DNA of 47,689 bases from a virus, in IMG/VR virus record IMGVR_UViG_3300025300_001994, positions 1 to 47,689 of that record. One strand, 5' to 3'. Made by a program: the position numbers and the translations under genes. Below are positions 4,246-45,358 of this stretch, in pieces. Numbering within the stretch: the first letter of the stretch is position 1; every line of letters begins with the position of its first letter. Below the pieces are notes generated by a model. The model saw only the letters and a list, made by a program, of their open reading frames with translations. It did no database searches and was not told the origin of the DNA.

Positions 4246-4431
4246 ATGAAAAAAATTGAGAAATGTACCAACTGTTCAGATAAGACATATAACTATTATA
4301 CTATTAAGACCAATAGGGGTGATCTGCATCAATGTAGAGACTGTTATGAGAGACTATTCATGCGGGCTCACCGAAATGATTATGCTCTTAACAGCACCAA
4401 GAACAAGAAGGATCGTTATTCAGGGGCCTGA
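4246..4431 (+). CDS. Small four-cysteine zinc-finger protein
   Basis: A 61-residue basic protein with CTNC near the N-terminus and CRDC about 20 residues later, a typical treble-clef or zinc-ribbon arrangement. The C-terminal half is rich in Asn, Lys and Arg. No strong Shine-Dalgarno sequence is visible, though AGAGATAG lies upstream. The last codons overlap the 5' end of the tmRNA at 4423, so messenger and tmRNA may come from one transcript. Function unknown. Confidence 0.6.
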   Translation: MKKIEKCTNCSDKTYNYYTIKTNRGDLHQCRDCYERLFMRAHRNDYALNSTKNKKDRYSGA

Positions 4432-4703
4432 AATGGTATCGACTGATGGTGGAGGTAATAACTGCATGTGCTGGTTGACCGAAGGGCCAGCTAAAAAATC
4501 GGTTAAACTATTTTACTTGCCGAGCCTAGCTTAGCACTCGCTGCCTAGCAGTGCGGGGTTGTCCTAGACCTTGTTACCCAATTAGGACGAGGGGTTACAT
4601 TTCCCGTATTAACTAAAAAATGATATTTTTTGTTTGCGGTTTAAACATGTAGATGTTATTATTGAAGTTAGACAGGACGCGGGTTCGATTCCCGCCGGGT
4701 CCA
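4423..4703 (+). ncRNA. ssrA: Transfer-messenger RNA (tmRNA), phage-encoded
   Basis: tmRNA rescues stalled ribosomes and tags the nascent protein for degradation. The 5' end (GGGGCCTGAAATGGTATCGAC) resembles the conserved tmRNA 5' end. The 3' end has a perfect T-arm (GCGGG, loop TTCGATT, CCCGC; 4679-4695) and an acceptor strand ending in discriminator A4703. The acceptor stem carries the G3-U70 pair (4425 with 4700) that marks alanine identity; CCA is not encoded. The tag frame runs from GCT at 4490 to TAG at 4532 and encodes AKKSVKLFYLPSLA. Helices follow it (for example GTCCTA with TAGGAC around 4560-4588). The acceptor stem has two mismatches in my pairing. The RNA array starts only four bases downstream. 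Confidence 0.85.
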
Positions 4704-4706
4704 CTT

Positions 4707-4783
4707 GGCTGGTTTGGTCAGCAGCCTTATTTTGCAGGTGGTATGAGTTTCCACACTGTACTGATCAACCCCGATAAAACTCA
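4707..4783 (+). ncRNA. Double-pseudoknot RNA element, unit 1 (first of dimer 1-2)
   Basis: Four helices are visible. P0 is GGCTG (4707-4711) with CAGCC (4722-4726). P1 is TTTGGTCAG (4713-4721) with CTGATCAA (4761-4768). P2 is TGCAGGTGG (4733-4741) with CCACACTGTA (4751-4760). A pseudoknot joins the P2 loop TGAGTTT (4744-4750) to AAACTCA (4777-4783). P0 and P1 interlock as a second pseudoknot. No U-tract follows; unit 2 starts on the last base. Confidence 0.8.
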
Positions 4784-4869
4784 GTTGGTTTGGTCAGCGA
4801 CTTTAATATGCAGGGGGTTTCGGGTTGTCCCCTCTGTACTGATCAAAGGCCCTAAAACCCGTTTTTTTT
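4783..4869 (+). ncRNA. Double-pseudoknot RNA element, unit 2, with U-tract
   Basis: P0 is AGTTG (4783-4787) with CGACT (4798-4802), changed on both strands relative to unit 1. P1 is TTTGGTCAG (4789-4797) with CTGATCAAA (4839-4847). P2 is TGCAGGGGG (4809-4817) with CCCCTCTGTA (4829-4838). The loop CGGGTT (4821-4826) pairs with AACCCG (4856-4861). Eight T follow directly (4862-4869), giving the downstream pairing strand the look of an intrinsic terminator end. Confidence 0.8.
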
Positions 4870-4877
4870 ATAAAGAT

Positions 4878-4954
4878 AGCTGGTTTGGTCAGCAGCTTTA
4901 GGATGCAGGTGGAAGGAGTTGCCACACTGTACTGATCAACGTCGATAAAACCCA
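4878..4954 (+). ncRNA. Double-pseudoknot RNA element, unit 3 (first of dimer 3-4)
   Basis: P0 is AGCTG (4878-4882) with CAGCT (4893-4897). P1 is TTTGGTCAG (4884-4892) with CTGATCAA (4932-4939). P2 is TGCAGGTGG (4904-4912) with CCACACTGTA (4922-4931). The loop-to-downstream pairing is the weakest of all units: loop AAGGAGTTG against AAAACCCA leaves mismatches, so this copy may be degraded. Unit 4 follows at once, without a U-tract. Confidence 0.75.
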
Positions 4955-5043
4955 GCCGGTTTAATCAGCGGCTTTAATATGCAGGTGGTTCGTGCGTTCC
5001 CACACTGTACTGATTAAAGAGGTTAAAACGCACTTTTGTTTTT
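4955..5043 (+). ncRNA. Double-pseudoknot RNA element, unit 4, with U-tract
   Basis: P0 is GCCG (4955-4958) with CGGC (4969-4972). P1 is TTTAATCAG (4960-4968) with CTGATTAAA (5010-5018), a double compensatory change. P2 is TGCAGGTGG (4980-4988) with CCACACTGTA (5000-5009). Loop GTGCGTT (4992-4998) pairs perfectly with AACGCAC (5027-5033). TTTTGTTTTT follows (5034-5043). Confidence 0.8.
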
Positions 5044-5052
5044 ATGAAGATA

Positions 5053-5141
5053 GCCGGTTTGGTCAGCGGCTTTAGTATGCAGGGGGTTTAACATTACCCC
5101 ACTGTACTGATTAACATAGATAAAATGTTTTTGTTTTTTTT
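5053..5141 (+). ncRNA. Double-pseudoknot RNA element, unit 5 (single), with U-tract
   Basis: P0 is GCCG (5053-5056) with CGGC (5067-5070). P1 is TTTGGTCAG (5058-5066) with CTGATTAA (5107-5114). P2 is TGCAGGGGG (5078-5086) with CCCCACTGTA (5097-5106). Loop AACATT (5090-5095) pairs with AATGTT (5124-5129), with a T-rich run to 5141. The TnpB-like gene starts about 100 bp further on. Confidence 0.8.
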
Positions 5142-5244
5142 ACTTGAGAGAAAGGAGGAATTAGAGGAGAGGAAGTTTAGTTTTGAAAAGTTGGCTTAAT
5201 GTTAAGTTAACTATTATACTAACTATGTTATATTGGAGATTATT

Positions 5245-6501
5245 ATGTATTGTACTAAGAAAAGAAATATAAAATGGCAACTTGATCTTGCAGACTCCCC
5301 TCTTGTGAGTCAGCTCAAGGGACATAATAAAACCTTGAATGATCTTTCTAGGCAAGTGTTTCAAGACCTTAACAGTGGGCGGCTCTCTAATATTCATGTT
5401 AGAGGAGGAGGTGACAAGAAAGATGTCATCTATGATGGTAAGCCTACAACTAAGAGTACCCTCAAAGATATCTATCGTCCTATTTTTGAACGAAATGGTT
5501 GGGCTCCGAAGATTGAAGCGTTTAAAACTGATAGTTTAGAACATGTTCTAAATAGATATCAGGGTTATATAAAACGCAACAAAGCTTTCAGTGAGCTTAT
5601 CACGTTTAAGCCTAAAGATATCCATTACAAGGGTCCTTTTGTAAAAGATGATGGAAGTAGTTTATGTTTTACTACTCCTGCTGGATCTTTTACTCACTCT
5701 GTTGGTTATAATACTAACAGTGGTACTCTTGTTAATAAGGTACATCTCAAAAAAATGAAGTTTGGAGGAAATCTAAACATTCAACAAGGGAGTTTTATCG
5801 CCGCCGTTGAAATTCCATACGAATCCGCATATGAGCCTGAGAGCTGGATTGGTATGGATATCAACAAACGTGATGAGTTTTGGTTGGTGATAGGATCTAC
5901 CGTTCACGCCAAGCCTGATCATATTGCTACCCTTGAGGATGCAATTTCCGAAGTTCAAGTGGAAATTAACAAACCCAAAGGACAACGACATAAGAAAGAG
6001 GGTCATTATGATTCTTCTCAGCGTCGAGGTCTTAGGAAAAGGTGGAAGAAGCTTCATAAAAAGCATAAGAAAGCCATTAAAAACTTTCTTGATCCTATTC
6101 TTGAGGAGATAGAGAGAAATCGTAGTGGCTTAGTTATTGATGGAGTTACGACCGGCGCTCAAAATGGGAGTTTCGGTCAGGACAAAATCATTGACTACCT
6201 TATTACTCAATGCGAAGACCGACGAATCCCATTCTATGTGCCACCAACCTCTTATACATCTCAAAGATGTGCCAAATGCGGACATGTAGAAAAGGATAAT
6301 CGTAAAAACGCAGACGAGTTTAAGTGTCAACAATGTGGACATGAGGCTCAGCCTGACTTGAATGCCGTGCAGAATTACCAGTTTATTGGTGAGACTCTCC
6401 ATTCTAAGGGCCATGCTTTTGGGTACTACGGTACGCCCAGAAGTAGAGACCCGAGGGTGATTCGTGTGTCCGATATCAAGTCTATATTTAATATAGATTA
6501 G
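5245..6501 (+). CDS. TnpB/Cas12f-like RuvC nuclease (IS200/IS605-type accessory nuclease)
   Basis: A 418-residue protein with the TnpB architecture: a basic N-terminal RNA/DNA-binding half, RuvC-I in WIGMDINKRDEFW (Asp205), RuvC-II in SGLVIDGVTTG, a four-Cys zinc finger (Cys342, 345, 361, 364) and RuvC-III in DLNAVQN (Asp371). TnpB family members are RNA-guided DNA nucleases. RuvC-II normally carries Glu; here Asp299 takes the place, which may weaken or alter catalysis. The ATG at 5245 follows TTGGAG; ATG 5233 is an alternative. No TnpA transposase lies nearby. Five structured RNA units precede the gene, and another begins on the last two bases of its stop codon. Confidence 0.8.
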   Translation: MYCTKKRNIKWQLDLADSPLVSQLKGHNKTLNDLSRQVFQDLNSGRLSNIHVRGGGDKKDVIYDGKPTTKSTLKDIYRPIFERNGWAPKIEAFKTDSLEHVLNRYQGYIKRNKAFSELITFKPKDIHYKGPFVKDDGSSLCFTTPAGSFTHSVGYNTNSGTLVNKVHLKKMKFGGNLNIQQGSFIAAVEIPYESAYEPESWIGMDINKRDEFWLVIGSTVHAKPDHIATLEDAISEVQVEINKPKGQRHKKEGHYDSSQRRGLRKRWKKLHKKHKKAIKNFLDPILEEIERNRSGLVIDGVTTGAQNGSFGQDKIIDYLITQCEDRRIPFYVPPTSYTSQRCAKCGHVEKDNRKNADEFKCQQCGHEAQPDLNAVQNYQFIGETLHSKGHAFGYYGTPRSRDPRVIRVSDIKSIFNID

Positions 6502-6585
6502 CTGGTTTAGTCGGCGACTTTAGTATGAAGGTGGTTTTTGTAAGAATTTTTCCACGCTTCACCGACTAAAGATACTAAAAAATTC
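6500..6585 (+). ncRNA. Double-pseudoknot RNA element, unit 6 (first of dimer 6-7)
   Basis: This unit starts inside the TnpB-like stop codon. P0 is AGCTG (6500-6504) with CGACT (6515-6519), one C-A mismatch. P1 is TTTAGTCGG (6506-6514) with CCGACTAAA (6562-6570). P2 is TGAAGGTGG (6526-6534) with CCACGCTTCA (6552-6561), changed on both strands relative to the other units. Loop GAATTTTT (6544-6551) pairs with AAAAATTC (6578-6585). There is no U-tract before unit 7. Confidence 0.8.
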
Positions 6586-6586
6586 C

Positions 6587-6674
6587 CCCTTGTTTACTCA
6601 GGAGGGTTATGGAGCAGGTGGTTTCGGGTAATCCACACTGTACTGAGTAAACTCGATAAAACCCGTTTTTTTTT
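6587..6674 (+). ncRNA. Double-pseudoknot RNA element, unit 7, with U-tract
   Basis: This is the most diverged primary sequence with the same fold. P0 is CCCTT (6587-6591) with GAGGG (6602-6606), a complete replacement. P1 is TTTACTCAG (6593-6601) with CTGAGTAAA (6643-6651). P2 is GCAGGTGG (6614-6621) with CCACACTGT (6633-6641). Loop CGGGT (6625-6629) pairs with ACCCG (6661-6665), then nine T. Genes for a zinc ribbon and a SpeD-like protein follow. Confidence 0.8.
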
Positions 6675-6691: not shown

Positions 6692-6826
6692 ATGACAATT
6701 TGGAACTATTGTGATTGTGGATCAATTGTAGATGAATTTGAAAAAGTGTGTAGTAATTGTGGTGAAGAGGTAATATTAAGTTGGGAGGCCGACGATGTGG
6801 AGAGACTTATCACCGACGATAACTAG
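6692..6826 (+). CDS. 44-residue zinc-ribbon protein
   Basis: A small acidic protein with two Cys pairs, CDC near residue 7 and CSNC near residue 20, spaced as in zinc ribbons. AAGGAGCAGG gives a good ribosome binding site. Its end overlaps the start of the SpeD-like gene in another frame (6795), so the two are probably translationally coupled. The gene sits immediately behind RNA unit 7 and could be controlled by it. Function unknown. Confidence 0.55.
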   Translation: MTIWNYCDCGSIVDEFEKVCSNCGEEVILSWEADDVERLITDDN

Positions 6827-7145
6827 ACAAAGACTGGTCATAGAGGCAACTCTTGAGCGTCCTATGCGCGCCATAGAGATATTACGCTATATTAAAAGTG
6901 TGGGTCCTCTTCTCGATATGACACCAGTAACCTCTCCAATCTTATCTCATGAGCCCGATTATGGGTGGTGCGGATACATGCATTGGAAAGAATCTGGGAT
7001 GCACATGTATACTTGGGATACTAAGCCTCCCTTTTTTATTAGTGTAGATATATATACGTGTAAAAAATTTGATCCGATGGACGCAGTAGAATTTACAAAG
7101 AAATTCTTTGGAGAAAACATTATTGATATAGTTTGGAAAGAATAA
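6795..7145 (+). CDS. speD: S-adenosylmethionine decarboxylase-like protein (SpeD family)
   Basis: SpeD enzymes self-cleave to form a pyruvoyl group and decarboxylate S-adenosylmethionine for spermidine synthesis. The C-terminal half fits the family: ESGMHMYTW matches the ESHLTIH(T/S)(W/F) processing region, followed by SVDIYTCKKFDP, like AID(V)YTCG in bacterial SpeD. The length (116 residues) is near the single-chain bacterial type. The residue after the processing serine is Gly, where His is usual, so autoprocessing may differ. GGGAGG precedes the ATG. SpeD genes are known in other marine phages. The second half is convincing, the first half less so. Confidence 0.65.
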   Translation: MWRDLSPTITRQRLVIEATLERPMRAIEILRYIKSVGPLLDMTPVTSPILSHEPDYGWCGYMHWKESGMHMYTWDTKPPFFISVDIYTCKKFDPMDAVEFTKKFFGENIIDIVWKE

Positions 7146-7149
7146 GGAG

Positions 7150-7160
7150 CCCGTGCGGGG
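7150..7160 (+). repeat. Left arm of inverted repeat flanking hsp20
   Basis: CCCGTGCGGGG here can pair along all 11 positions (one G-U) with CCTCGCACGGG at 7659-7669 on the far side of the hsp20 gene. This arm lies in the leader of hsp20. Confidence 0.5.
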
Positions 7161-7219
7161 TAGAAAATAGTCATGCCTTATAGGGTGACTAATTATTCTT
7201 GCTTTACAAGGAGAAAATT

Positions 7220-7651
7220 ATGAGTAACATAGTAAAACGACACGATCAGTTTATGCAGGACTTTTTTCCCTTTTCGATTGGTTTAGATGGTGTATTCAGC
7301 AGATTGGGCTCTATTAAGCGTGATAATCTGTGTAATACGTTCCCTCCTTACAATATTATTAAGGATGGAGATAAAATTTTAGTAGAAATGGCTCTCGCGG
7401 GCTATAGTAAAGATAACATTGAAGTAGTGGTGGAAGATGGTATTCTTTCTATCACAGGAGATAACAAGGACAGGAACAAGCCGGATAACCACATTCATCA
7501 GGGTATTGCTACTCGCAATTTTGTGAGGAAGTTTACTTTGGGCGAACAGGTGGAGGTAAATTCGGCAGAGATGAAGGACGGTATGTTAGTTGTGGAACTG
7601 GAGGAGATAGTGCCTCCAGAAAAACAACCAAAGCGTATCACTATTAATTAG
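7220..7651 (+). CDS. hsp20: Small heat shock protein, Hsp20/alpha-crystallin family
   Basis: A 143-residue ATP-independent chaperone that holds unfolding proteins. The alpha-crystallin domain is clear: PPYNIIKDGDKILVEMALAG, then DNIEVVVEDGILSITGD, and the closing GMLVVELEEIVPPEKQPKRI with the usual Ile-x-Ile-like tail (ITIN). AAGGAGAAAATT places the start at 7220 rather than at the in-frame ATG at 7199. Hsp20 genes are common in large T4-like marine phages and probably help virion assembly. The gene is flanked by an 11-bp inverted repeat. Confidence 0.9.
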   Translation: MSNIVKRHDQFMQDFFPFSIGLDGVFSRLGSIKRDNLCNTFPPYNIIKDGDKILVEMALAGYSKDNIEVVVEDGILSITGDNKDRNKPDNHIHQGIATRNFVRKFTLGEQVEVNSAEMKDGMLVVELEEIVPPEKQPKRITIN

Positions 7652-7658
7652 TTTTTCA

Positions 7659-7674
7659 CCTCGCACGGGTTTTT
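7659..7674 (+). terminator. Right arm of inverted repeat with T-run after hsp20
   Basis: CCTCGCACGGG (7659-7669) followed by TTTTT pairs with the leader arm at 7150-7160. Locally it has no good hairpin partner, so any terminator would need the distant leader strand. Confidence 0.4.
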
Positions 7675-7687
7675 ATTATGGAATAAC

Positions 7688-7954
7688 ATGAAAACAAAAT
7701 GGATTTTACTAGTAATATTTCACATGTTTATTATCATTGGTAATGCTGTATCCTTTTTTATCGCTCCATTTCTGGCTCCTTGGTATATCTCACTGCCTAT
7801 CTGTTCTTTTATTTTCCTGATTACTTTCAGTAAAGAAATCAAATGCCCCTTGACTAACTGGGAAAATAATATGCGAGCCAGTATGGGTAAAAAACAGATT
7901 GGTGGCTTTATTGGTCACTATGTTATTAAACCACTTAGTAAGTTATTGCCTTAA
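7688..7954 (+). CDS. Hypothetical two-span membrane protein
   Basis: An 88-residue protein with two hydrophobic segments (about residues 5-28 and 33-46) followed by a polar, partly basic C-terminal half. A weak ribosome binding site (TATGGAATAAC) precedes the ATG. It lies in the small-gene operon after hsp20. I cannot name a family; a holin-like or inner-membrane role is possible but unsupported. Confidence 0.55.
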   Translation: MKTKWILLVIFHMFIIIGNAVSFFIAPFLAPWYISLPICSFIFLITFSKEIKCPLTNWENNMRASMGKKQIGGFIGHYVIKPLSKLLP

Positions 7955-7999
7955 AAATGTGTATACCCACTATATCTTTTCTAATATGTGGAGATAAAA

Positions 8000-8434
8000 A
8001 TGGGTATGCCAATAGTTTCGACGGAGGTTATACAATCCACTTCAGCCTCAATGGCGCACGCCAGAAAACAATTTTGGAAAGATGTCACCCAGAAAATACT
8101 TCTTGAAAATCCTCTTGTCTATCAAATATTAACTATTAACGAATCGAGTGCTAAGGCTACGGATTTTAAAGATGGCTATAAGAGAGGGGCCTGTCTAATC
8201 TATGCTATTCTTTCCCGACAGGCTGAAGCCGACGATATGAATGAAATATGGGGTTTGGGTACTGAACTTGATCTGGAGAAAAAAGAAGTGATTAAGTGTT
8301 CATGTGGAAGTGTCAACTGGGAACAGAGTTTTAAGTGTCCTGTTGATCCAGCAAATGACAAATTTAACTGTAAAGACTGTGGACTTGTTTTTAAAAGATA
8401 CGATTCCCCCAACGAAGGAGAAAAGGATGCCTAA
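8000..8434 (+). CDS. Hypothetical protein with C-terminal zinc ribbon
   Basis: A 144-residue protein. The N-terminal two thirds look helical; the C-terminus holds CSCGSVNW, then FKCPVD and CKDCGLVF, a zinc-ribbon-like cysteine arrangement. The start at 8000 is chosen because GGAG lies seven to eleven bases upstream; ATG 7988 in the same frame overlaps that ribosome binding site. Its stop overlaps the next gene by eight bases. Function unknown. Confidence 0.6.
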   Translation: MGMPIVSTEVIQSTSASMAHARKQFWKDVTQKILLENPLVYQILTINESSAKATDFKDGYKRGACLIYAILSRQAEADDMNEIWGLGTELDLEKKEVIKCSCGSVNWEQSFKCPVDPANDKFNCKDCGLVFKRYDSPNEGEKDA

Positions 8435-8723
8435 GGTTACAGGAATTTATGAACACACTCTTGACATTAGCGATGTAAGAGGTAAAATGAAGTTAGCACT
8501 TGATGATTTACTTAAAGCCTTTGAGATGCAGGATATTTCAGTCATCGAGGAAAAAAATTATTTTAAATTTGAAGGAATAAGTCGAGGAGTCAACACAAAA
8601 GGGACGATAGATATTCATGACACAAATGTTGAAGTAACTATTGACCTCCCATTTTCTGCTTTAGCATTCAAGGGGCGAATTCAAAATGCTATTGATAAAA
8701 GAGTTCCTCTGTTTCTGGAATAG
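8427..8723 (+). CDS. Polyhydroxyalkanoate-system-type protein (PHA_gran_rgn-like)
   Basis: A 98-residue protein with the pattern of the small polyhydroxyalkanoic acid system proteins: a helical DISDVRGKMKLALDDLLKAF, then FKFEGISRGVNTKGTIDI, then VEVTIDLPFSALAFKGRIQ and a short C-terminal helix. In bacteria these are linked to PHA granules, but the molecular role is unclear. AACGAAGGAGAAAAGG sets the start at 8427, although the frame is open further upstream. It is unusual in a phage, and the assignment rests on pattern only. Confidence 0.5.
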   Translation: MPKVTGIYEHTLDISDVRGKMKLALDDLLKAFEMQDISVIEEKNYFKFEGISRGVNTKGTIDIHDTNVEVTIDLPFSALAFKGRIQNAIDKRVPLFLE

Positions 8724-8726
8724 GCC

Positions 8727-8993
8727 ATGTTAGATCTTTCACAATTAATTCCGCACGACAACCTAGTATGGTCTGAGGAAGAAAATAAATGGATTTGCTT
8801 TACATCTGAGGAACTGGATGCTATAATTGAATCAGCCCATAACTCTGGATTCAAAGAATTGGACAACGTGGTTAAGATTGTTAGATGGTGTGAAAAAGCT
8901 AGAATAGGGGCGCTCCTCATGGAGAGATTCATTGGGGGTCATATTAAAGTGGAAGAAATATCTGACGATAACGACCTTTATTTCACGACGTAA
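8727..8993 (+). CDS. Hypothetical acidic protein
   Basis: An 88-residue acidic protein beginning three bases after the previous stop, so part of one operon. It contains WSEEENKWICFTSEELDAI and a central helical part with Cys and Trp. No domain is recognised. No strong ribosome binding site is visible; coupling to the upstream gene is likely. Confidence 0.55.
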   Translation: MLDLSQLIPHDNLVWSEEENKWICFTSEELDAIIESAHNSGFKELDNVVKIVRWCEKARIGALLMERFIGGHIKVEEISDDNDLYFTT

Positions 8994-8995
8994 AG

Positions 8996-9388
8996 ATGAA
9001 AACACGAAAAACACCAACTAAAAAATGCCCCGAGTGCGAAACAGATTGTCATGTGCGATCTTCTGCCTGCAAGAACTGTGATCATGTATTCTACCTTAGA
9101 AAAAAAAAGAACCAAGTCATCGAAGACTGGCGAAATTTAAAGAAGGGGGATACTATCAGGTCTGTAGGTAGTAATGGTCCATACTGGGAAAATCCAGAAA
9201 CCATGGACAGACTCTATATGGGCCACTACGGCAAATTTATTGTGCAATCTGTGATGAAAGATGGTATCATGGCAGTAGAGGATAAGCGTCATTCACACTG
9301 CTATGAATTCATCTATATGGGTAAATATAAGAAGTCGCACCTTATGGATAATTATTATAATTGTCCTCACAAAATAGTTTATTGTTAG
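8996..9388 (+). CDS. Zinc-ribbon protein with C-terminal beta domain
   Basis: A 130-residue protein starting two bases after the previous stop. CPEC (about residue 14) and CKNC (about residue 27) form an N-terminal zinc ribbon, followed by a Lys-rich linker and a domain that begins WRNLKKGDTIRSVG and looks beta-rich. The C-terminus adds CPHKIVYC. The composition suggests nucleic acid binding, but no known family is recognised. Confidence 0.55.
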   Translation: MKTRKTPTKKCPECETDCHVRSSACKNCDHVFYLRKKKNQVIEDWRNLKKGDTIRSVGSNGPYWENPETMDRLYMGHYGKFIVQSVMKDGIMAVEDKRHSHCYEFIYMGKYKKSHLMDNYYNCPHKIVYC

Positions 9389-9414
9389 TTTGTTTCTTTA
9401 TTGGAGGTTTAGTT

Positions 9415-9621
9415 ATGGTTGATTGGAGTGGCATTTTGTCGAGTAAGTCTAGTGTGAGTACGATGAAGAGTTTTGCTACCGGCGAGATGAGTGGGCGCAC
9501 CTTGTATTCACAATTTGCGAACACGGAGAGCGGCGGCGCAGTCCGTCAGCTTTTGCGTCAGCATGGCGTTACCTATGGACGACGGTTGGCCCGCAAGGCG
9601 CTGACTCGACGTGGGTACTAA
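9415..9621 (+). CDS. Small basic hypothetical protein
   Basis: A 68-residue protein starting at 9415, preceded by a strong TTGGAGG (9400-9407). It is Ser/Gly-rich at the N-terminus and ends in an Arg-rich stretch (YGRRLARKALTRRGY). Codon use is more GC-rich than in its neighbours, which may reflect strong expression or recent transfer. A small structural or DNA-binding role is possible. Not recognised. Confidence 0.6.
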   Translation: MVDWSGILSSKSSVSTMKSFATGEMSGRTLYSQFANTESGGAVRQLLRQHGVTYGRRLARKALTRRGY

Positions 9622-9693
9622 CTCTCTGGTGTGTTTGGAGTGGGAGGCAACCAATTAACTTTCCCAATTTCTTAAACACTTTGATAAGGACGT

Positions 9694-10050
9694 ATGATGA
9701 ATAATAATCTCGTTAGTTTTGAAGGAAATTTGACTAAAGATCCTGAATACAAAACCGTTTCAGAAGATAAGGACTTGGCTGTATTTAGAATTGCTGTCAA
9801 CGAACGTCTCAATCGGGAAAAGGAAGAGACTCTTTATATTGATGTGAATGCTTGGGGATGGCACGTCCCTTACTGTAAAAACGTTAACCTTTCTAAAGGA
9901 GATAGAGTAATCCTGAAGGGTCGACTTCAGGAACGCAGCTGGAAAGATGGTCAGGGTAATAATCGCACGTCTGTTGTTGTTGTTCCTAATACCTTTTCTA
10001 AGGTAGTGCGACCAAAGAAGGCAGCCGTTACTGAAGCAGAACCCTTTTAG
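9694..10050 (+). CDS. ssb: Single-stranded DNA-binding protein
   Basis: A 118-residue OB-fold protein. NNLVSFEGNLTKDPEYKTV, FRIAVNERLN, the aromatic YIDVNAWG and KGDRVILKGRLQERSWKDGQG all follow the bacterial SSB pattern in order. The acidic tail is short (TEAEPF), and its final Pro-Phe matches the SSB C-terminal tip that recruits partner proteins. It protects single-stranded DNA during replication and repair. Start at 9694 or 9697 (two consecutive ATGs); AAGGA lies just upstream. Confidence 0.9.
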   Translation: MMNNNLVSFEGNLTKDPEYKTVSEDKDLAVFRIAVNERLNREKEETLYIDVNAWGWHVPYCKNVNLSKGDRVILKGRLQERSWKDGQGNNRTSVVVVPNTFSKVVRPKKAAVTEAEPF

Positions 10051-10062
10051 TTCTATATTAAA

Positions 10063-10242
10063 ATGAAGCAAGACAGAATCAAATCCAGAATTTCTCTAAT
10101 AGAAAATGAGCTGTTCCTTGTTGGTAACGCTTTGCACGAGCCTCAGCTCAATCCTCATGAACATAAGGAGTTAAAAAGAAAATCCAGTAAACTGAGCAAA
10201 GAAAAGAAAAAATTGGAAAAAAGACTTCAGACATTTAAGTAG
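10063..10242 (+). CDS. Small coiled-coil protein
   Basis: A 59-residue, strongly basic, helical protein. It reads KQDRIKSRISLIENELFLVG, then ends in a KRKSSKLSKEKKKLEKRL heptad-like run. The gene follows ssb closely, but no clear ribosome binding site is visible. It could be a small nucleic-acid-associated helper; not recognised. Confidence 0.45.
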   Translation: MKQDRIKSRISLIENELFLVGNALHEPQLNPHEHKELKRKSSKLSKEKKKLEKRLQTFK

Positions 10243-10265
10243 TATTGACGACATAGGAGATATGA

Positions 10266-10601
10266 ATGTACAAAATGATTTTGTCAGTTATGGTTGCGCT
10301 AAGTTTTAACTCTAGTGTATGGGCACATGAGCCTCGTGAAAGCGGTACTGTGTATGCAGTGTATCCTATCAGGGGTTGCTTGCATTCTGTAGGTGGATTT
10401 GTTCTCAACACAACAAAAGGAGTTGTTGGAGGAGCTGTCACAGTTCTAGAAGGTACGTGGGGCATTATTACGGCACCCTTCCACGTAAAGTGGAAGAAGC
10501 CACGAGCACGCTACCTTTTCTATCAGCCGCCCCGCGTTCATTATGAAGCGGGAAAGATCTACGAGGTTATGCCTCCAGATCTTGTGATAGAACTAGAGTA
10601 G
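10266..10601 (+). CDS. Exported small protein with signal peptide
   Basis: A 111-residue protein with an N-terminal signal peptide: MYKMILSVMVALSFNSSVWA is hydrophobic and ends in a likely cleavage site before HEPRES. The mature part holds GGFVLNTTKGVVGGAVTVLEG, a Gly-rich hydrophobic stretch, and an Arg/Tyr-rich C-terminus. AGGAGA at 10255-10260 sets the start. It is probably periplasmic or membrane-inserted. The function is unknown. A strong terminator follows directly. Confidence 0.65.
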   Translation: MYKMILSVMVALSFNSSVWAHEPRESGTVYAVYPIRGCLHSVGGFVLNTTKGVVGGAVTVLEGTWGIITAPFHVKWKKPRARYLFYQPPRVHYEAGKIYEVMPPDLVIELE

Positions 10602-10604
10602 CTT

Positions 10605-10630
10605 AAGGGGGATTTAATCCCCCTTTTTTT
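10605..10630 (+). terminator. Rho-independent terminator
   Basis: GGGGGATTTAATCCCCC forms a hairpin directly followed by eight or more T. It ends the operon that includes ssb and the exported protein. Confidence 0.9.
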
Positions 10631-10632
10631 TC

Positions 10633-10660
10633 TTGACTTCTTGTTATGCTGATGTACAAT
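10633..10660 (+). promoter_or_regulatory. Sigma-70-type promoter
   Basis: TTGACT (10633-10638), 16-bp spacer, TACAAT (10655-10660), directly behind the terminator. It drives the short gene at 10695 and the tRNA genes that follow. Confidence 0.75.
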
Positions 10661-10694
10661 GAGGATGTCAACTGCACTACATGGGAGAATCACG

Positions 10695-10883
10695 ATGGAC
10701 GTTAAAAAAGAGTTGCGACAAGAGATGATCAAAGATCCTGAGTTTTACACTCATTTTATTGGGGCGTTCAAGATGGCTCCTTTTAAATTTAGAACTCATC
10801 TTGCAGAATGTGGTATAGAATATACACCAGACCAACTACAAGATTTGGCTCTTCTATATGAAGAAGTATTATCTACCCTCTAA
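10695..10883 (+). CDS. Hypothetical helical protein
   Basis: A 62-residue protein. The ATG at 10695 is chosen because the frame's earlier ATG at 10659 lies on the -10 box and cannot be in the transcript; GGGAGA gives a ribosome binding site. The protein is helical with mixed charge (VKKELRQEMIKDPEFY, then QLQDLALLYEEVL). Function unknown. The tRNA-Arg gene begins four bases after the stop, so it is probably on the same transcript. Confidence 0.6.
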   Translation: MDVKKELRQEMIKDPEFYTHFIGAFKMAPFKFRTHLAECGIEYTPDQLQDLALLYEEVLSTL

Positions 10884-10886
10884 TAC

Positions 10887-10952
<66 letters not shown>

Positions 10953-10960
<8 letters not shown>

Positions 10961-10986
10961 CTACATATCTTCACAAGGGATAACAA
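10953..10986 (+). repeat. 34-bp direct repeat, proximal copy (tRNA-Arg 3' end)
   Basis: Thirty-four bases beginning with CGCGAGTACTACATATC and ending GGGATAACAA are identical to 13791-13824. This copy starts in the acceptor 3' strand of tRNA-Arg and provides the ribosome binding site of the gene at 10988. A tRNA-end repeat bounding about 2.8 kb resembles the att sites of an integrated element, though no integrase lies between the copies. Confidence 0.85.
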
Positions 10987-10987
10987 T

Positions 10988-11179
10988 ATGAAATGGCGAG
11001 AACTACGAGAAGAGCTGAACAAAATGAGCGACAAGGATTTGGATAGTGAGGTAATAGTATTGAATAATGTGCTTGACGGAACTTTACTTACAAATTGCTG
11101 GCTAACAAACAACATAGAGGATGACATTATTGATTGTGACACTCCCTTTCTAAGCTGTTGGAGTGAGTATGAAGATTGA
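10988..11179 (+). CDS. Small acidic protein of the M-x-W-x-E-L type
   Basis: A 63-residue acidic protein (MKWRELREELNKMSDKDLDS) with the same N-terminal plan as the protein at 266-451. Its ribosome binding site AAGGGATAA lies inside the 34-bp repeat. It ends in an acidic, Cys/Trp-containing tail. It lies between two tRNA genes and overlaps the next small gene. Function unknown. Confidence 0.6.
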   Translation: MKWRELREELNKMSDKDLDSEVIVLNNVLDGTLLTNCWLTNNIEDDIIDCDTPFLSCWSEYED

Positions 11180-11342
11180 TGACAAAGTTATTACCTTTCA
11201 ACAAGAGAAAGGAGTGATACTCAGACCTTGGAATAGAGATGACGGTCAGTATGATTGGTGGGTGGAACTGAAGTTTACTATTGACGATAAGGAATACACG
11301 AGTATAATTCCTTATAAAGAATCGGAATTGACGGGACTGTAG
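11169..11342 (+). CDS. Small hypothetical protein overlapping a tRNA
   Basis: A 57-residue frame that starts 11 bases before the end of the preceding gene and ends ten bases inside the tRNA-Ile gene. It resembles a small beta-rich domain (IDDKVITFQQEKGVILRPW, then YDWWVELKFTIDDKEYTSII). The upstream GGAGTGAG gives a ribosome binding site. Overlap with a tRNA is unusual but short; coding character is fair. Confidence 0.5.
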   Translation: MKIDDKVITFQQEKGVILRPWNRDDGQYDWWVELKFTIDDKEYTSIIPYKESELTGL

Positions 11343-11405
11343 CTCAGTGGTAAGAGCGCCGTTCTTATAAAGCGGTGGCCGAAGGTTCAATTCCTTCCAG
11401 TCCTA
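11333..11405 (+). tRNA. tRNA-Ile (anticodon UAU)
   Basis: A complete 73-nt cloverleaf: acceptor GGGACTG with CAGTCCT (first pair G-U), D-arm GCTC/GAGC, anticodon stem CCGTT/AGCGG around loop CTTATAA, T-arm GAAGG-TTCAATT-CCTTC. The anticodon UAU reads AUA directly. Bacteria normally read AUA with a CAU tRNA whose C is converted to lysidine, so this phage tRNA avoids that modification. CCA is not encoded. Confidence 0.93.
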
Positions 11406-11418
11406 CTTAGGAGAAAAA

Positions 11419-11967
11419 ATGAATAGACTAAAGAATACTATCTGTTATCTGTGTGGCCCAATGGATCGTGTGGCTGATGGTGGTGTAACATGGAGAAGGA
11501 ACCTCTCGCCTAAATTAAAAGAGATGGGCGTGGGCGTTCTTGACCCATCTAAGAAACCAACAGAGTTTGCCAAGGAAGATATTAATTTTCGGGAGACAAT
11601 AAATGAGCTAAAGAGGACACATCAGTTTGATAATATTAAAAGAGAGATGAAAGATATTGCTGCTATTGATCTGCGTATGGTAGACATCGCCCACTTTGTG
11701 GTAATGTATATGGATATAGATGTTCATATGTGCGGCTCATATCATGAAGCGTTTGTAGCTGTTAGCCAGAAGAAGCCAGTACTAATAGTATGTAAACAAG
11801 GTAAGCCTAGTGTGCCCAACTGGATGTTTGGAGTGATTCCACATCAACATATGTTTGACAACTGGAGTTTACTGTTGGAGTATTTGCATCATATTGACGA
11901 AGATGAAGATGTGGATCACCTCAAGCGGTGGAGATTTTTTAATTTTTCTGAAATATACGAGCAGTAA
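11419..11967 (+). CDS. Nucleoside 2-deoxyribosyltransferase-like protein
   Basis: A 182-residue protein of the nucleoside deoxyribosyltransferase-like Rossmann group, which handle nucleosides or nucleotides. The N-terminal YLCGPMDR (family motif xLxGPM), the later AIDLRMVDIAHFVVMYMD segment (family DxxxxxxxDxVVxxxD), and SYHEAFVAVSQKKPVLIV (family GTxxEhxxA-like region with catalytic Glu) all fit. A ribosome binding site AGGAG precedes the ATG. In a phage it may act in nucleotide salvage or NAD-related signalling. The exact substrate cannot be told. Confidence 0.65.
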   Translation: MNRLKNTICYLCGPMDRVADGGVTWRRNLSPKLKEMGVGVLDPSKKPTEFAKEDINFRETINELKRTHQFDNIKREMKDIAAIDLRMVDIAHFVVMYMDIDVHMCGSYHEAFVAVSQKKPVLIVCKQGKPSVPNWMFGVIPHQHMFDNWSLLLEYLHHIDEDEDVDHLKRWRFFNFSEIYEQ

Positions 11968-11987
11968 AACACACTGGAGAACAAGAT

Positions 11988-13868
11988 ATGAGTAAGTCAT
12001 TTGCTGAAGTTGCCATGGAGTTGAGTGGAAAAACAACTGACGAGTCTGAGAGTATAGGCAAAATAGATACAGCAGATGATCAGGTGGAGGGATTATTTCA
12101 GGAAAAATACCAAACTAAAAATAGCCCAGTGTATAGAGCTGTCTGGGATCATACATTTCCCTCCAACGAATTCTTTTCTTTTGATTTGACCAGACCTAAT
12201 TGGCATAAACTAGAAGATAGTATAAGTACTATTAATAGGCACAAAGCTACGGGTACGTGCCATAATTCTAGTGGCAAACTACATGAGGATCTGTTAACAG
12301 ATCTTTCTGAAGCTGGATATTTTGGATTACTTGTCCCACTTGCAGAAAAGCCACCAATAAAGTTTTCTGAATTCTCAGCATTTCTAACAGAAGTTGCGCG
12401 CATTGAAGCAAATGTCGCCGGTCTAGCTTCAGTACATGGATGTATTGGTGCTGTTGATCCAATTAAAACATTTGGTAATCAAGACCAGAAGGAGCGATAC
12501 CTTCCAAAATTAGCCAACGGTAAATTTCTTTCTGGGTTTGCCCTAACAGAGCCGGGCGCTGGATCTGATATGACTTCCCTAAAAACAACAGCCGTCTTGG
12601 ATGGTGATCATTATGTTGTTAATGGAGAAAAATTATTTATCACCAATGCGATATGTGGCCGTCTTATTTCTTTAGTATGTATGATAGATAGTAAACCACA
12701 GGTTCTTTTGGTAGAACTACCTGCGGCTGAGAATGATGAATTTCAAATCGTTAACTATGGACTGCACGCATTGAAGCGTCTTCATAATAACGGTTTGGTG
12801 TTTAAAAACTTCAGAGTCCCCAAAGAAAACCTCATTCAACTTGAGCGAGGTGATGGTCTTACAATAGCATATCATGGTTTAAACTTGGGAAGAATTTCCC
12901 TCTGTGCTAATGCATCGGGATGTATGAAGATGATGTTGGAATCTATGATACCGTGGGCACATTATAGAACAACATATGGGCAGCCCATAAAGAATAGAGA
13001 GCTGGTGCAGAATAGAATTGGAAAATTGGCTGGATATATTTTATCATCTGATGCTTTGGTGGCATGGTGCTCATCATTAATTGATAGCGGTTATCGTGGT
13101 GAGTTGGAATGTATTATAGCTAAGACCTTTGGGTCTGAATGCCAGAAAGAAGCTGCAATAGATCTATGTATGAAAACACATGGAGGTAGATCTTTTTTGG
13201 AGGGTCATGCAATTGGAGATAATATTCATGAGTTTCTTGCGCCTCTTATTTATGAGGGTGAGGGTGATATGTTAAACATGGCCTTCTTTAAATCCCTTGT
13301 TAAAGAACATGGTCTACAATACTTTGAACCTATTGGTCAAGCCCTAGCTAAGACTGGTAAAAAGAATATGTCTTTGGTGGATATGGCTAAAAATTATAAA
13401 CTATTCCTACCTTACGCTCAGTGGATGCTTAAGGAAACAACGTATCATAAAGGCGCTATGCGTATGGATGGCCTTCCTCTTACACTTCAAGCTTATGCGG
13501 CTTTTGCTGCTAAAAATCTTCAAGGGACAGGAAAAGAATTAAGCTCCTTAATGAGAAAATACCAATTGAAGTTGGGAGATAGACAGTGTAGAATATCTCT
13601 ATTGTCTAGAAAGATACAACATCTTGTAACAATTATTGTTACCTGTACCTACGCATCAATATTTGAAAATGATATCGTCATTAGAACTGCTGAAGTGTCT
13701 TGTGATAACTTGTATAACAATATTATTGGGCGCCATCCAACAGACCAGCAAATCAAACGCAGCGTCCTGTTGGGTAAAGAAATTAGTGAGCGCGAGTACT
13801 ACATATCTTCACAAGGGATAACAAGAAGAAGGGAAGTGAACTCTGATTCTATTTTAATGAGATATTAA
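11988..13868 (+). CDS. Acyl-CoA dehydrogenase-like flavoprotein
   Basis: A 626-residue protein with the acyl-CoA dehydrogenase plan: N-terminal helical domain, FALTEPGAGSDMTSL and YVVNGEKLFITNA in the central beta domain, then RISLCANASGCMKMM and HYRTTYGQPI in the C-terminal helical domain, and THGGRSFLEG followed by LIYEGEGDML near the usual catalytic Glu position. Such enzymes oxidise acyl-CoA with FAD; the length, with a roughly 200-residue extension, resembles the longer FadE-like members. The last two dozen codons are encoded through the 34-bp tRNA-linked repeat, so the C-terminus is probably a fusion product. It is unusual cargo for a phage. Confidence 0.8.
   Translation: MSKSFAEVAMELSGKTTDESESIGKIDTADDQVEGLFQEKYQTKNSPVYRAVWDHTFPSNEFFSFDLTRPNWHKLEDSISTINRHKATGTCHNSSGKLHEDLLTDLSEAGYFGLLVPLAEKPPIKFSEFSAFLTEVARIEANVAGLASVHGCIGAVDPIKTFGNQDQKERYLPKLANGKFLSGFALTEPGAGSDMTSLKTTAVLDGDHYVVNGEKLFITNAICGRLISLVCMIDSKPQVLLVELPAAENDEFQIVNYGLHALKRLHNNGLVFKNFRVPKENLIQLERGDGLTIAYHGLNLGRISLCANASGCMKMMLESMIPWAHYRTTYGQPIKNRELVQNRIGKLAGYILSSDALVAWCSSLIDSGYRGELECIIAKTFGSECQKEAAIDLCMKTHGGRSFLEGHAIGDNIHEFLAPLIYEGEGDMLNMAFFKSLVKEHGLQYFEPIGQALAKTGKKNMSLVDMAKNYKLFLPYAQWMLKETTYHKGAMRMDGLPLTLQAYAAFAAKNLQGTGKELSSLMRKYQLKLGDRQCRISLLSRKIQHLVTIIVTCTYASIFENDIVIRTAEVSCDNLYNNIIGRHPTDQQIKRSVLLGKEISEREYYISSQGITRRREVNSDSILMRY
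13791..13824 (+). repeat. 34-bp direct repeat, distal copy (inside the acyl-CoA dehydrogenase-like gene)
   Basis: Identical over 34 bases to 10953-10986. Here it is read in frame near the C-terminus and encodes REYYISSQGIT. Without the repeat the protein would end differently, so the recombination that made the repeat also changed this gene's end. Confidence 0.85.
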
Positions 13869-24517: not shown

Positions 24518-25145
24518 TATTAAATACACTTATCCACCTAGCGCACATTACCGTAGGTTGTTGCGTAAAAGTGTATCTCAACTTGTCACTATTGACTGGA
24601 AAAATATCCTTCCAGCCCCTCCTCAAAACGATAGTGATATCACCAGAAATGAGCTTAAAAACGTATCTGAGGCTACGAGTAATCGTACAAAATTAGATAT
24701 AGATCTTATAAAGCTCGTGGATAAAGATCCCATCGATCTATTTCTGCCATTCTTAAAGAAACACAACCTTTCTTTTCCTCATAATATATTTAAGAAAGCT
24801 AACGATATCTTAGAAATTGTCGCCATTCAATTAAAATGGCAGTATTCACGACCACGTCCTTATCAGCTGGCTAAAATTTTTAATATCCCTCTAGATATTA
24901 TTAATACTGATACTCATCAAACTCCCGCTTATCCTTCTGGTCATGCTGCCTATGGTGCTCTGGTGGCTTCTATACTGAGCGATATATACCCAGAACATGC
25001 ACCTGAGTTCTACAGGATGGGATTACTAGCGGGTTATGCGAGAGTTTTACAGGGAGTTCATTATGCTTCTGATAACGATGCTGGTGTAGTTCTAGCAAAC
25101 GTACTGTGGAATAATGTTAAACAGCACTTACTAAAAGGAATCTGA
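24474..25145 (+). CDS. PAP2-superfamily phosphatase/haloperoxidase-like protein
   Basis: A 223-residue protein with the three PAP2 signatures in order: KWQYSRPRP (KxxxxxxRP), YPSGHAAYGAL (PSGH) and GYARVLQGVHYASDNDAGV (SRxxxxxHxxxD-like, with Ala at the usual Ser). PAP2 enzymes remove phosphate from lipid phosphates or related substrates. There are no multiple membrane spans, so it is more like the soluble acid-phosphatase branch. The start inside the preceding gene is the most upstream one; a later start cannot be excluded. It may modify host lipids or envelope precursors. Confidence 0.8.
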   Translation: MEEQILLAESGYINNIKYTYPPSAHYRRLLRKSVSQLVTIDWKNILPAPPQNDSDITRNELKNVSEATSNRTKLDIDLIKLVDKDPIDLFLPFLKKHNLSFPHNIFKKANDILEIVAIQLKWQYSRPRPYQLAKIFNIPLDIINTDTHQTPAYPSGHAAYGALVASILSDIYPEHAPEFYRMGLLAGYARVLQGVHYASDNDAGVVLANVLWNNVKQHLLKGI

Positions 25146-35498: not shown

Positions 35499-35527
35499 TT
35501 GACATATTGAAGGTGAGTTGCTATAAT
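35499..35527 (+). promoter_or_regulatory. Full-consensus sigma-70 promoter
   Basis: TTGACA (35499-35504), 17-bp spacer, TATAAT (35522-35527). Both boxes and spacing match consensus exactly. It drives the operon starting at 35570. Confidence 0.9.
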
Positions 35528-35569
35528 GGAGTATAGCGACTCACTTTTTCTTTTTTATTGGGAGAAAAC

Positions 35570-42736: not shown

Positions 42737-43987
42737 ATGTTAGATTTTTATTTTAATAGGCGTGATTTTTTACGTATGGGAAGTATCGGAGCTGGAATGT
42801 CTACGATAGGTCTATCCGATTTAGCATTATCGGAAGAAGAGGAGCTGGCTCTAAAAGACAAATCAGTAGTATGGCTGTGGCTGGGTGGTGGACCCACTCA
42901 ATTTGAAACGTTTCATGCTCCCACTGATTTCAATGTTCCTGATCAATTTAGACCTGTGAATGGGTTGTTATATGACAGCGCTACTAATATATCATTAGGG
43001 GCTGATTGGCTTCAAACATTTAAACATAAAGATAAAATTGTAACTGTTAATTCTTTTACGCACGGTGACTCATCTCATCGTCAAGCAACTCACTGGATGA
43101 TGACGGGTCACTACAACGGCGAACGAGCCCAAACATCCAACCCAAAATATCCGGGTTTTGGCTCTATCGTTTCTTCCATCTATGGAGCTAATACTTCTAC
43201 GGGAATTCCAACTTATATTAAACAAGGTGGTATTTCGGGAGAGGGACCTTCATGGTTAGGTGGAGCGTATAAACCATTTGATCCTTCCAACAAGGACAAC
43301 CTCAGTCCTAGAGTAGAAATAGGTAGATTCAAGTCGCGCGGTGAATTACTGGCGGCCTTGGATAAGCAGCATGAAATCGTTAGTAATGCAGCTAATTCCA
43401 TAGGTAAATATACTACACAGGCTTATGATACTATTCTCGGCACTGCTAAGCTGGCATTCAATATCGATAAAGAGCCAACTAAAACTAGAGATGCATATGG
43501 TAATACCGATATTGGAAAGCAAATGTTACTAGCACGTAGACTTTCAGAGTATGGTACAAAATTTATTACGATGCACTACGGGGGTTGGGACATGCATGGT
43601 AATATTTCTAATGCTCTTAAGGGTAGAGTTCCTCCTGTTGATCAGGCTATTGCGGCTTTCTTGCAGGATGTCTGGGAAAAAGGATTAAATGAAAAGATTT
43701 TACTGGTGGTCACCGGAGAGTTTGGCCGAACTAAACTTAATGGCAACGCAGGTCGCGACCACTGGCCCGCGATGTCACCTATGCTTATGGCTGGAGGAGA
43801 ATATGAGTTAGGAAGAACTGTAGGTAAGGCTGATAAGTCGTATACACCTAAAGAAAACCCATATGGTCCGTTGGATGTGTGCGCAACACTATTTGACCAC
43901 TTTAATATTCCTATGAGTATTCAGAAAGTGGATAATGGCGGAAGGCCGCGTTACTTGTTAGAGGGTGAAGCCCAATCAATTTTATGA
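42737..43987 (+). CDS. DUF1501 protein with Tat signal (paralogue 1)
   Basis: A 416-residue DUF1501 protein (sulfatase/alkaline-phosphatase-like superfamily). The N-terminus carries a twin-arginine signal (NRRDFLRMG followed by a weak hydrophobic run), so it should be exported folded. Family blocks are present: SVVWLWLGGGPTQFETFHAP, HYGGWDMHGN, VVTGEFGRTKLNGNAGRDHW and MLMAGGEYELG. Function of DUF1501 is not established; metal-dependent hydrolysis of phosphate or sulfate esters is a guess. It has AGAAGGAGG upstream and pairs with the next gene. Typical for Planctomycetes, unusual in a phage. Confidence 0.85.
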   Translation: MLDFYFNRRDFLRMGSIGAGMSTIGLSDLALSEEEELALKDKSVVWLWLGGGPTQFETFHAPTDFNVPDQFRPVNGLLYDSATNISLGADWLQTFKHKDKIVTVNSFTHGDSSHRQATHWMMTGHYNGERAQTSNPKYPGFGSIVSSIYGANTSTGIPTYIKQGGISGEGPSWLGGAYKPFDPSNKDNLSPRVEIGRFKSRGELLAALDKQHEIVSNAANSIGKYTTQAYDTILGTAKLAFNIDKEPTKTRDAYGNTDIGKQMLLARRLSEYGTKFITMHYGGWDMHGNISNALKGRVPPVDQAIAAFLQDVWEKGLNEKILLVVTGEFGRTKLNGNAGRDHWPAMSPMLMAGGEYELGRTVGKADKSYTPKENPYGPLDVCATLFDHFNIPMSIQKVDNGGRPRYLLEGEAQSIL

Positions 43988-44000
43988 TTAGGAGATTAAG

Positions 44001-45269
44001 ATGTTTAGACTATCAAGAAGAGGATTCTTATCGGTGGGCGGTTTTGGTATGTTGTCTTTGCCTAATATTTTACAGGCACAACAACAAAACGGCACCCAAC
44101 ACAAAGCTGTTATTAATATATTTTTAGGAGGAGGTCCTCCGCATCAAGACATGTGGGACATTAAAACAGATGCTCCCGCAGAAATTAGAGGCGAATTCCA
44201 GCCTATCGATACGTCAGTACCCGGTATCCAGATTGGAGAAAGTTTTCCTAAGATCGCCTCTATGATGGATAAGTTTGTTGCTATTCGTTCAGTGATCGGT
44301 TCGGCTGGTGGTCATGACGGCTATCAATGTATGAGCGGATGGGGACGAAATGAAAAGATCGTTGGAGTTGGCTATCCTAGTATTGGATCGGTTGCTTCAA
44401 AGATTCAAGGTCCCGTAGACGTATCAGTTCCAGCCACTATTGGTCTGGCAGCTAAAACCAAACATAGCCCGTGGTCTGAGTCTGGTAGTGAGGGCTATCT
44501 CGGTATCTCCCATAGACCTTTTAAACCTAATGGCGAGATGATGTCTGACCTCACCCTTAATGGTATTACTAAAGATAGGCTACAATCTAGAAAAGAATTG
44601 CTAACAGGCCTTGGTAATATTAAGCCTGAAGGAGATGTTTTCATTGATGAGGCTTTTGATGTACTTACTTCTAGTAAACTTGTAGACGCTCTGGATTTAA
44701 GTCAGGAGGACCCTAAAATCCGTGAACGTTATGGAGATGGTAAGCCTTTTAAGTATCAGTATGACGGTGCTCCTACTGTTAATGAACACGTCCTCATGGC
44801 ACGCCGTTTGGTTGAGGTAGGAGTGCGTTCTGTGAGCCTTTCTTATGGTAGATGGGATAGTCATGGCGCTAACTTTGATCTCGTTAGAGATCATGGTGGT
44901 AAGCTTGATCAGTGTGTCAGCGCATTGGTTGAGGATCTGGATGAAAGAGGGATGCTTGATGATGTGACTGTTGTGGTATGGGGCGAGTTTGGTCGTACAC
45001 CCAAGATTAATAAGGGTGCTGGCCGAGATCACTGGCCACAAGTTAGTTGCGCTCTATTGGCTGGTGGCGGTATGAAGCTTGGTCAAACGATTGGCGAAAC
45101 AAATCGTCTTGGTGAACACGCTGTCGAGCGCCCAGTTCATTTTCAGGAAATTACTAGTACGATTTATTATAATCTTGGAATTGATCCTAGAGACACAACG
45201 GTTATCGACACAGGTGGACGACCTCAGTATCTTCTAGATCACCGAGATCCCATGACAGAGCTGGTTTGA
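44001..45269 (+). CDS. DUF1501 protein with Tat signal (paralogue 2)
   Basis: A 422-residue second DUF1501 protein, 13 bp downstream. Tat signal LSRRGFLSVGG is followed by MLSLPNILQAQQQ. The same family blocks appear (INIFLGGGPPHQDMWDIKTD, YGRWDSHGAN, VVWGEFGRTPKINKGAGRDHW, LLAGGGMKLGQ), but overall the two have diverged strongly, so they may form a heteromeric pair or act on different substrates. The stop codon lies inside structured RNA unit 8. Confidence 0.88.
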   Translation: MFRLSRRGFLSVGGFGMLSLPNILQAQQQNGTQHKAVINIFLGGGPPHQDMWDIKTDAPAEIRGEFQPIDTSVPGIQIGESFPKIASMMDKFVAIRSVIGSAGGHDGYQCMSGWGRNEKIVGVGYPSIGSVASKIQGPVDVSVPATIGLAAKTKHSPWSESGSEGYLGISHRPFKPNGEMMSDLTLNGITKDRLQSRKELLTGLGNIKPEGDVFIDEAFDVLTSSKLVDALDLSQEDPKIRERYGDGKPFKYQYDGAPTVNEHVLMARRLVEVGVRSVSLSYGRWDSHGANFDLVRDHGGKLDQCVSALVEDLDERGMLDDVTVVVWGEFGRTPKINKGAGRDHWPQVSCALLAGGGMKLGQTIGETNRLGEHAVERPVHFQEITSTIYYNLGIDPRDTTVIDTGGRPQYLLDHRDPMTELV

Positions 45270-45346
45270 TCAGCAGCTTTATTATGCAGGAGGTTTCGGG
45301 TTCTCCTCTCTGTACTGATCAATTCAGTTAAAACCCGTTTTCTTTT
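45259..45346 (+). ncRNA. Double-pseudoknot RNA element, unit 8 (isolated copy), with U-tract
   Basis: Same fold as the array near 4.7 kb. P0 is AGCTG (45259-45263) with CAGCT (45274-45278). P1 is TTTGATCAG (45265-45273) with CTGATCAA (45315-45322). P2 is TGCAGGAGG (45285-45293) with CTCCTCTCTGTA (45303-45314). Loop CGGGTT (45297-45302) pairs with AACCCG (45332-45337), followed by TTTTCTTTT. It overlaps the DUF1501 stop and lies just ahead of a Cys-rich secreted protein gene. Confidence 0.8.
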
Positions 45347-45358
45347 CTGGAGGATAAA

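Follow-up and report, generated by a model that had tools for sequence, protein, structure and literature searches.

A repeated double-pseudoknot RNA element at gene ends in one phage lineage, possibly of the intrinsic-terminator type

The stretch of DNA analyzed here (the window) is a 47.7-kb phage fragment from IMG/VR that holds eight copies of an RNA element of about 78 nt, with units u1–u5 arranged in tandem after the tmRNA gene, u6 and u7 after a TnpB-like gene and u8 after a DUF1501 gene (Table 1). At the level of sequence comparison, the units are established as a structured RNA that is new to description and specific to one phage lineage. Since each block either begins where the tmRNA ends or overlaps a stop codon, a portable gene-end or terminator element fits best and appears the most economical reading; that the units are of the intrinsic-terminator type, with a pseudoknot helix (PKb) serving as the stem, we consider an even call. 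R1, a covariance model built on the eight window units, returns just these eight when searched against the 47.7 kb (worst E 8.7e-18), which, given that R1 was trained on them, reveals no further copy and lends no independent significance. A ninth copy was matched by R1 in the 103-kb record G004 (24621–24699, minus strand).

Table 1. Positions of the RNA units, their U-tracts and adjacent features in the window
Feature	Position	Strand	Basis
Phage tmRNA gene, tag AEPSLALAA	4424-4706	+	Rfam RF00023 83 bits; ARAGORN 4424-4704
u1, first of dimer 1-2, without U-tract; PKb TGAGTTT/AAACTCA	4707-4783	+	R1 84 bits; pairing table
u2, last of dimer 1-2; PKb CGGGTT/AACCCG	4783-4861	+	R1 91.1 bits
U-tract after u2, T8, zero spacing from PKb	4862-4869	+	sequence
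u3, first of dimer 3-4, without U-tract; weak PKb	4878-4953	+	R1 83.3 bits
u4, last of dimer 3-4; PKb GTGCGTT/AACGCAC	4954-5033	+	R1 90.6 bits
U-tract after u4, TTTTGTTTTT	5034-5043	+	sequence
u5, single; PKb AACATT/AATGTT	5052-5129	+	R1 83.7 bits
U-tract after u5, TTTGTTTTTTTT	5130-5141	+	sequence
Promoter-like site TTGGCT-18-TATACT, between array and TnpB-like gene	5191-5220	+	consensus match only
TnpB/Cas12f-like gene between the two unit blocks	5245-6501	+	Pfam PF07282 E 1.1e-12
u6, first of dimer 6-7; PKb GAATTTTT/AAAAATTC	6500-6585	+	R1 77 bits
u7, last of dimer 6-7; compensatory changes throughout P1 (CCCTT/GAGGG), also in PKa	6587-6665	+	R1 77.8 bits
U-tract after u7, T9	6666-6674	+	sequence
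u8, single	45259-45337	+	R1 95.3 bits; ortholog in sister species
U-tract after u8, TTTTCTTTTCT	45338-45348	+	sequence

Covariation supports a predicted fold of four helices, namely P1, PKa (P1 loop with a downstream strand), P2 and PKb (P2 loop with the strand before the U-tract), arranged on comparative sequence grounds in the order P1(5′)–PKa(5′, P1 loop)–P1(3′)–UUA linker–P2(5′)–PKb(5′, P2 loop)–P2(3′)–PKa(3′)–8–10 nt linker–PKb(3′)–U-tract. Counted in a MAFFT alignment, 96.7% of the cells of P1, PKa and P2 hold standard pairs and 10 of the 23 pairs of these helices have changed on both sides; none of 500 shuffles scored as high, and slid controls were paired to at most 49%. PKb scores 131 with its own partner strands and 91 with shuffled partners (none of 20,000 permutations reached the own-partner value), u3 being the exception with GTT/AAC plus one mismatch, so that strong loop pairing is not universal. 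Pairing between units was considered as a general rule and rejected: for each loop, again except that of u3, its own partner is the best or equal best. Wobble pairs on the + strand amount to 17 G·U against one A·C, which shows + strand RNA to be the functional form, and the unpaired G6, the UUA and a UAAAA within the PKa–PKb linker are invariant across the eight units. In an idealised A-form model the 8–10 nt of this linker can span the roughly 40 Å of the stacked PKa–P2 helix, so that geometry would allow both pseudoknots to form together. Single units have folding-energy z-scores that for the most part do not stand out, because the nested predictor used cannot form pseudoknots.

The dimeric layout and the placement of the T-runs given in the preliminary description were both borne out. 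Thus, 1-2, 3-4 and 6-7 are fused back to back (u1 and u2 share base 4783, u3 and u4 abut with 0 nt and u6 and u7 are 1 nt apart); u1, u3 and u6 have no T-run and each passes into the next unit, and u2, u4, u5, u7 and u8 are followed, 0 nt past the loop-partner strand, by 8–12 nt of mostly T. The ninth copy likewise ends in T9, bringing zero-spaced U-tracts to 6/6 block-final copies as against 0/3 block-first copies. T-rich tracts (at least 8 T in 10) number 57 on the + strand of the window, or about one per 840 nt, and the five zero-spaced tracts are therefore not a matter of chance, with the proviso that the units are paralogs whose U-tracts spread jointly with the array by duplication, so that the tracts within the array are not independent events; u7, u8 and the ninth copy are located outside the u1–u5 array. 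Positions 4708–4876 and 4879–5047 are 78% alike over 169 nt, and u1 and u3, both in first position, are the most similar paralog pair at 86%, which supports a duplication of dimer 1-2 as dimer 3-4.

Four of four blocks start at the end of a gene (tmRNA, TnpB-like, DUF1501 and zinc-ribbon genes). The start of u1 lies 0–2 nt past the tmRNA 3′ end, the first two bases of u6 belong to the TAG stop of the TnpB-like gene, the first 11 bases of u8 encode the final codons and TGA stop of DUF1501 gene 44001–45269, and the ninth copy overlaps the TAG stop of the zinc-ribbon gene in G004. The DUF1501 ending encoded inside u8 reads E-L-V and matches the E-L-I of a 57%-identical ortholog in record G044 that is without a unit, which indicates that the overlap altered the protein end little. 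On the other side, the U-tract of u7 is followed by the Shine–Dalgarno-like AAGGAG and at once by ORF 6692, and that of u8 by GGAGG and the start of ORF 45359. In three of the four blocks the next start codon comes some 8–18 nt past the U-tract with no obvious promoter between, a position that, taken alone, is compatible with a leader role; genes are closely packed in this genome in general, with a median gap of 12 nt in a hand-picked ORF set. The promoter-like site between the array and the TnpB-like gene belongs to a type whose count does not exceed that in shuffles, and its 14-mer TAACTATTATACTA recurs upstream of the tmRNA. The genes downstream of the units (TnpB-like, zinc ribbon/AdoMet decarboxylase, Cys-rich secreted protein and VOC-like protein) have no common pathway, and neither do those upstream.

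From about 21.7 kb rightwards G004 is 99.9–100% identical to the window and it keeps u8, while its left side is recombined; the left arm, compared with 1–21400 of the window, is sharply so, with shuffled orthologs (tmRNA, AdoMet decarboxylase, tRNA-Arg). The tmRNA ortholog of G004 is followed by an ordinary Shine–Dalgarno sequence and ORF without a unit, and its AdoMet decarboxylase ortholog has no unit upstream. By eye, the gene 3′ of the G004 tmRNA resembles window ORF 7988–8434 in a common C-terminal Cys motif, which places the array and the TnpB-like gene in a stretch absent from G004. In a sister species (G008; DNA about 85% alike at u8) u8 occupies the corresponding position with every helix kept, a P2 G·U changed to A-U, the linker altered and a U8 tract retained, and u8 is the sole unit with an ortholog from another species. 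An R1 search of 50 records with related DNA polymerases matched this species only, the other 49 including many fragments and one short piece of the same phage. At the gathering threshold Rfam 15 gave no family for the units in the window, and at E ≤ 10 on 4380–5260 only the tmRNA and weak tmRNA-end matches; INPHARED phage DNA searched with 4400–6000 gave short matches only, mostly to the tmRNA end. Pattern scans of IMG/VR returned the same phage and one sister species only, one further G+C-rich match being chance, and searching the fetched loci with a structural descriptor gave the known units and chance matches only. A loose 3′-half pattern hit 103 contigs and was discarded, the best newly fetched one (R1 E 0.27) being chance. 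In related phages, G041 and G042 (L131, L132), eight T's immediately follow the tmRNA acceptor strand, as if the tmRNA end were itself a terminator.

Like intrinsic (Rho-independent) terminators, the units combine a paired element with a zero-spaced U-tract of 8–12 nt at gene ends; they differ in that the stem adjoining the tract is a pseudoknot, made of hairpin loop and downstream strand, in a fold of about 78 nt that is often doubled. In u2, u4, u5, u7, u8 and the ninth copy a U-rich tract directly follows the 3′ strand of PKb, the only conserved stem adjoining the U-tracts. The stable G+C-rich simple hairpin of such terminators is not in evidence: a conserved nested hairpin before the U-tract is lacking in u2, u4, u8 and the sister u8, where the best hairpins are ad hoc or amount to nothing more than PKb closing a loop of about 30 nt, and a terminator scan calls none of the unit–U-tract junctions. 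The phage also carries ordinary hairpin terminators that end in U-tracts (10624, 35545 and 38456), which shows U-tracts to serve as terminator parts there. At 35499–35548 the sequence TTGACA-17-TATAAT, which matches a sigma-70-type promoter perfectly, overlaps a terminator hairpin of 17 pairs with a U-tract, with a Shine–Dalgarno sequence and start codon directly after. With polymerase at the U-tract, the P2 loop would capture the just-transcribed 3′ strand of PKb, the resulting pseudoknot helix would do the work of a terminator stem, and the released RNA would keep a 3′ end that is folded and resists exonucleases; the copies in first position, which lack a U-tract, would not terminate and would be either extra 3′-end folds or leftovers of duplication. 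PKb is the stronger in units with a U-tract, by a mean of 3.9 kcal/mol, a trend only (exact permutation 5/84). The preliminary description proposed tandem sensors sharing one terminator with a pseudoknot stem, or processed RNA ends; PKb indeed adjoins each U-tract, and a shared terminator would fit this anatomy. The three U-tracts downstream of the tmRNA, however, succeed one another within 280 nt and look like serial terminators as much as like one shared expression platform. Several points count against the terminator reading. The PKb of u5 is A-U rich and, at about −7 kcal/mol, weak as a terminator stem; the conserved G6, UUA and UAAAA together with P1 and PKa exceed what a terminator needs, so that something else also appears to be selected; and the close, promoterless start codons behind three of the four blocks make the next gene dependent on read-through, so that termination ahead of a gene without a promoter of its own would have to be partial. 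No description of a pseudoknot terminator was found in the literature searched.

On a second reading, the units are riboswitch-like or protein-responsive attenuators that form the leader of the gene behind them: a ligand would stabilise the double pseudoknot, PKb would form and stop transcription, and tandem copies would act cooperatively. We think this unlikely, and it would be rather unlikely that tandem sensors with one shared U-tract per block use the double pseudoknot itself, stabilised by a ligand or a protein, as terminator stem, which would make a new class of regulatory RNA in phages. The conserved unpaired core common to all units is aptamer-like and accompanied by covarying helices, PKb is variable yet covarying and followed by the U-tract, and the nearby start codons suit a leader. 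Riboswitches with two similar domains and one expression platform have precedent (PMC9481103), and the HMP-PP aptamer lies within a terminator (PMC6478431). As in tandem glycine-type riboswitches, two homologous domains are fused and a terminator-like feature follows the second only (PMC9481103), whereas here a related regulon is lacking, the fold is unrelated and the position is at the ends of upstream genes. The HMP-PP (thiS) riboswitch shares with the units a conserved fold with a U-tract terminator, small size and a possible pseudoknot; there, however, the possible pseudoknot belongs to the ON state and the terminator a classic hairpin (PMC6478431), whereas in the units the pseudoknot helix itself adjoins the U-tract and pathway-specific genes are lacking. 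Leaders of functionally coherent genes were not found, and the sensor function proposed in the preliminary description finds no support in neighbouring genes that share no pathway, in tmRNA and AdoMet decarboxylase orthologs in G004 that do without a unit, or in unit starts at upstream gene ends. Nor is there a covariation-backed antiterminator helix; the only candidate is an invariant GGUUU/AAACC complementarity, which is beyond the reach of covariation.

A stable-RNA gene followed by five pseudoknotted copies in tandem, with terminator-like tracts upstream of a gene that has its own promoter-like site, also recalls processed tandem small RNAs, that is, a decoy or antitoxin-like array of the kind found in type III toxin–antitoxin systems and phage ToxI mimics, the U-tracts being the 3′ ends of accumulated RNAs. 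ToxI and CptI arrays show the same order of tandem pseudoknots, terminator-like tract and gene. The units are larger (about 78 nt) and hold two interlocked pseudoknots, however, the downstream gene is TnpB-like without a ToxN, CptN or TenpN match, and u8 and the ninth copy stand solitary at unrelated genes, all of which makes such an array quite improbable.

Self-cleavage by a ribozyme that trims the 3′ end of the tmRNA would explain why u1 starts where the tmRNA stops and would suit a compact double-pseudoknot RNA. HDV-like ribozymes have the strand order P1-P2-P3-P3′-P1′-P4-P4′-P2′, which differs from the A-B-A′-C-D-C′-B′-D′ of the units. Like the units, theta ribozymes, which are HDV-like, are phage structured RNAs with a double pseudoknot that start from the 3′ end of a tRNA-like gene and lie at most 5 nt from phage tRNA 3′ ends (PMC10879173). 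Most unit blocks come after protein genes instead, 4380–5260 gives no Rfam ribozyme match at E ≤ 10, and the G004 tmRNA ortholog has no unit, so that we hold this reading very improbable. That the units are omega RNA guide scaffolds of the TnpB-like protein is the hardest to credit: the two blocks flank its gene, and u6 starts from the stop codon, the place of omega RNAs, but G004 retains u8 and the ninth copy although no TnpB domain was found in its 103 kb, and the unit 3′ ends are PKb and a U-tract, not variable guides. The TnpB-like gene itself is found in the window record and in none of the 17 others among the 18 tested, and the protein gave no relatives in IMG/VR. TnpB usually has an E in its RuvC-II motif; the corresponding motif here reads LVIDG, which leaves TnpB-like activity uncertain.

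Some further features of the window are recorded here. An iteron-like repeat of about 32 nt (TGACGTAAACCNTTACNANNAAAGGACTTAGG-like) occurs in five copies at 883–967 and 2517–2697, on both sides of ORF 1088–2293, in two blocks of about 111 nt that are 75% alike, and the region is possibly an origin or a protein-binding region. Over 6795–13868 and 42737–45269 the phage genome has two tandem DUF1501 genes as well as acyl-CoA dehydrogenase-like (11988), AdoMet decarboxylase (6795) and Hsp20 (7199) genes. For RIIA no relatives were found in IMG/VR.

Returning to the terminator reading, if PKb is the terminating helix, then a pseudoknot closing on the nascent strand can drive intrinsic termination, a mode outside what standard terminator finders look for. 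The nine paralogs with their differing PKb are a ready natural series for testing pseudoknot termination. If PKb does terminate transcription, the units would be portable gene-end cassettes that separate the shuffled gene modules of the phage.
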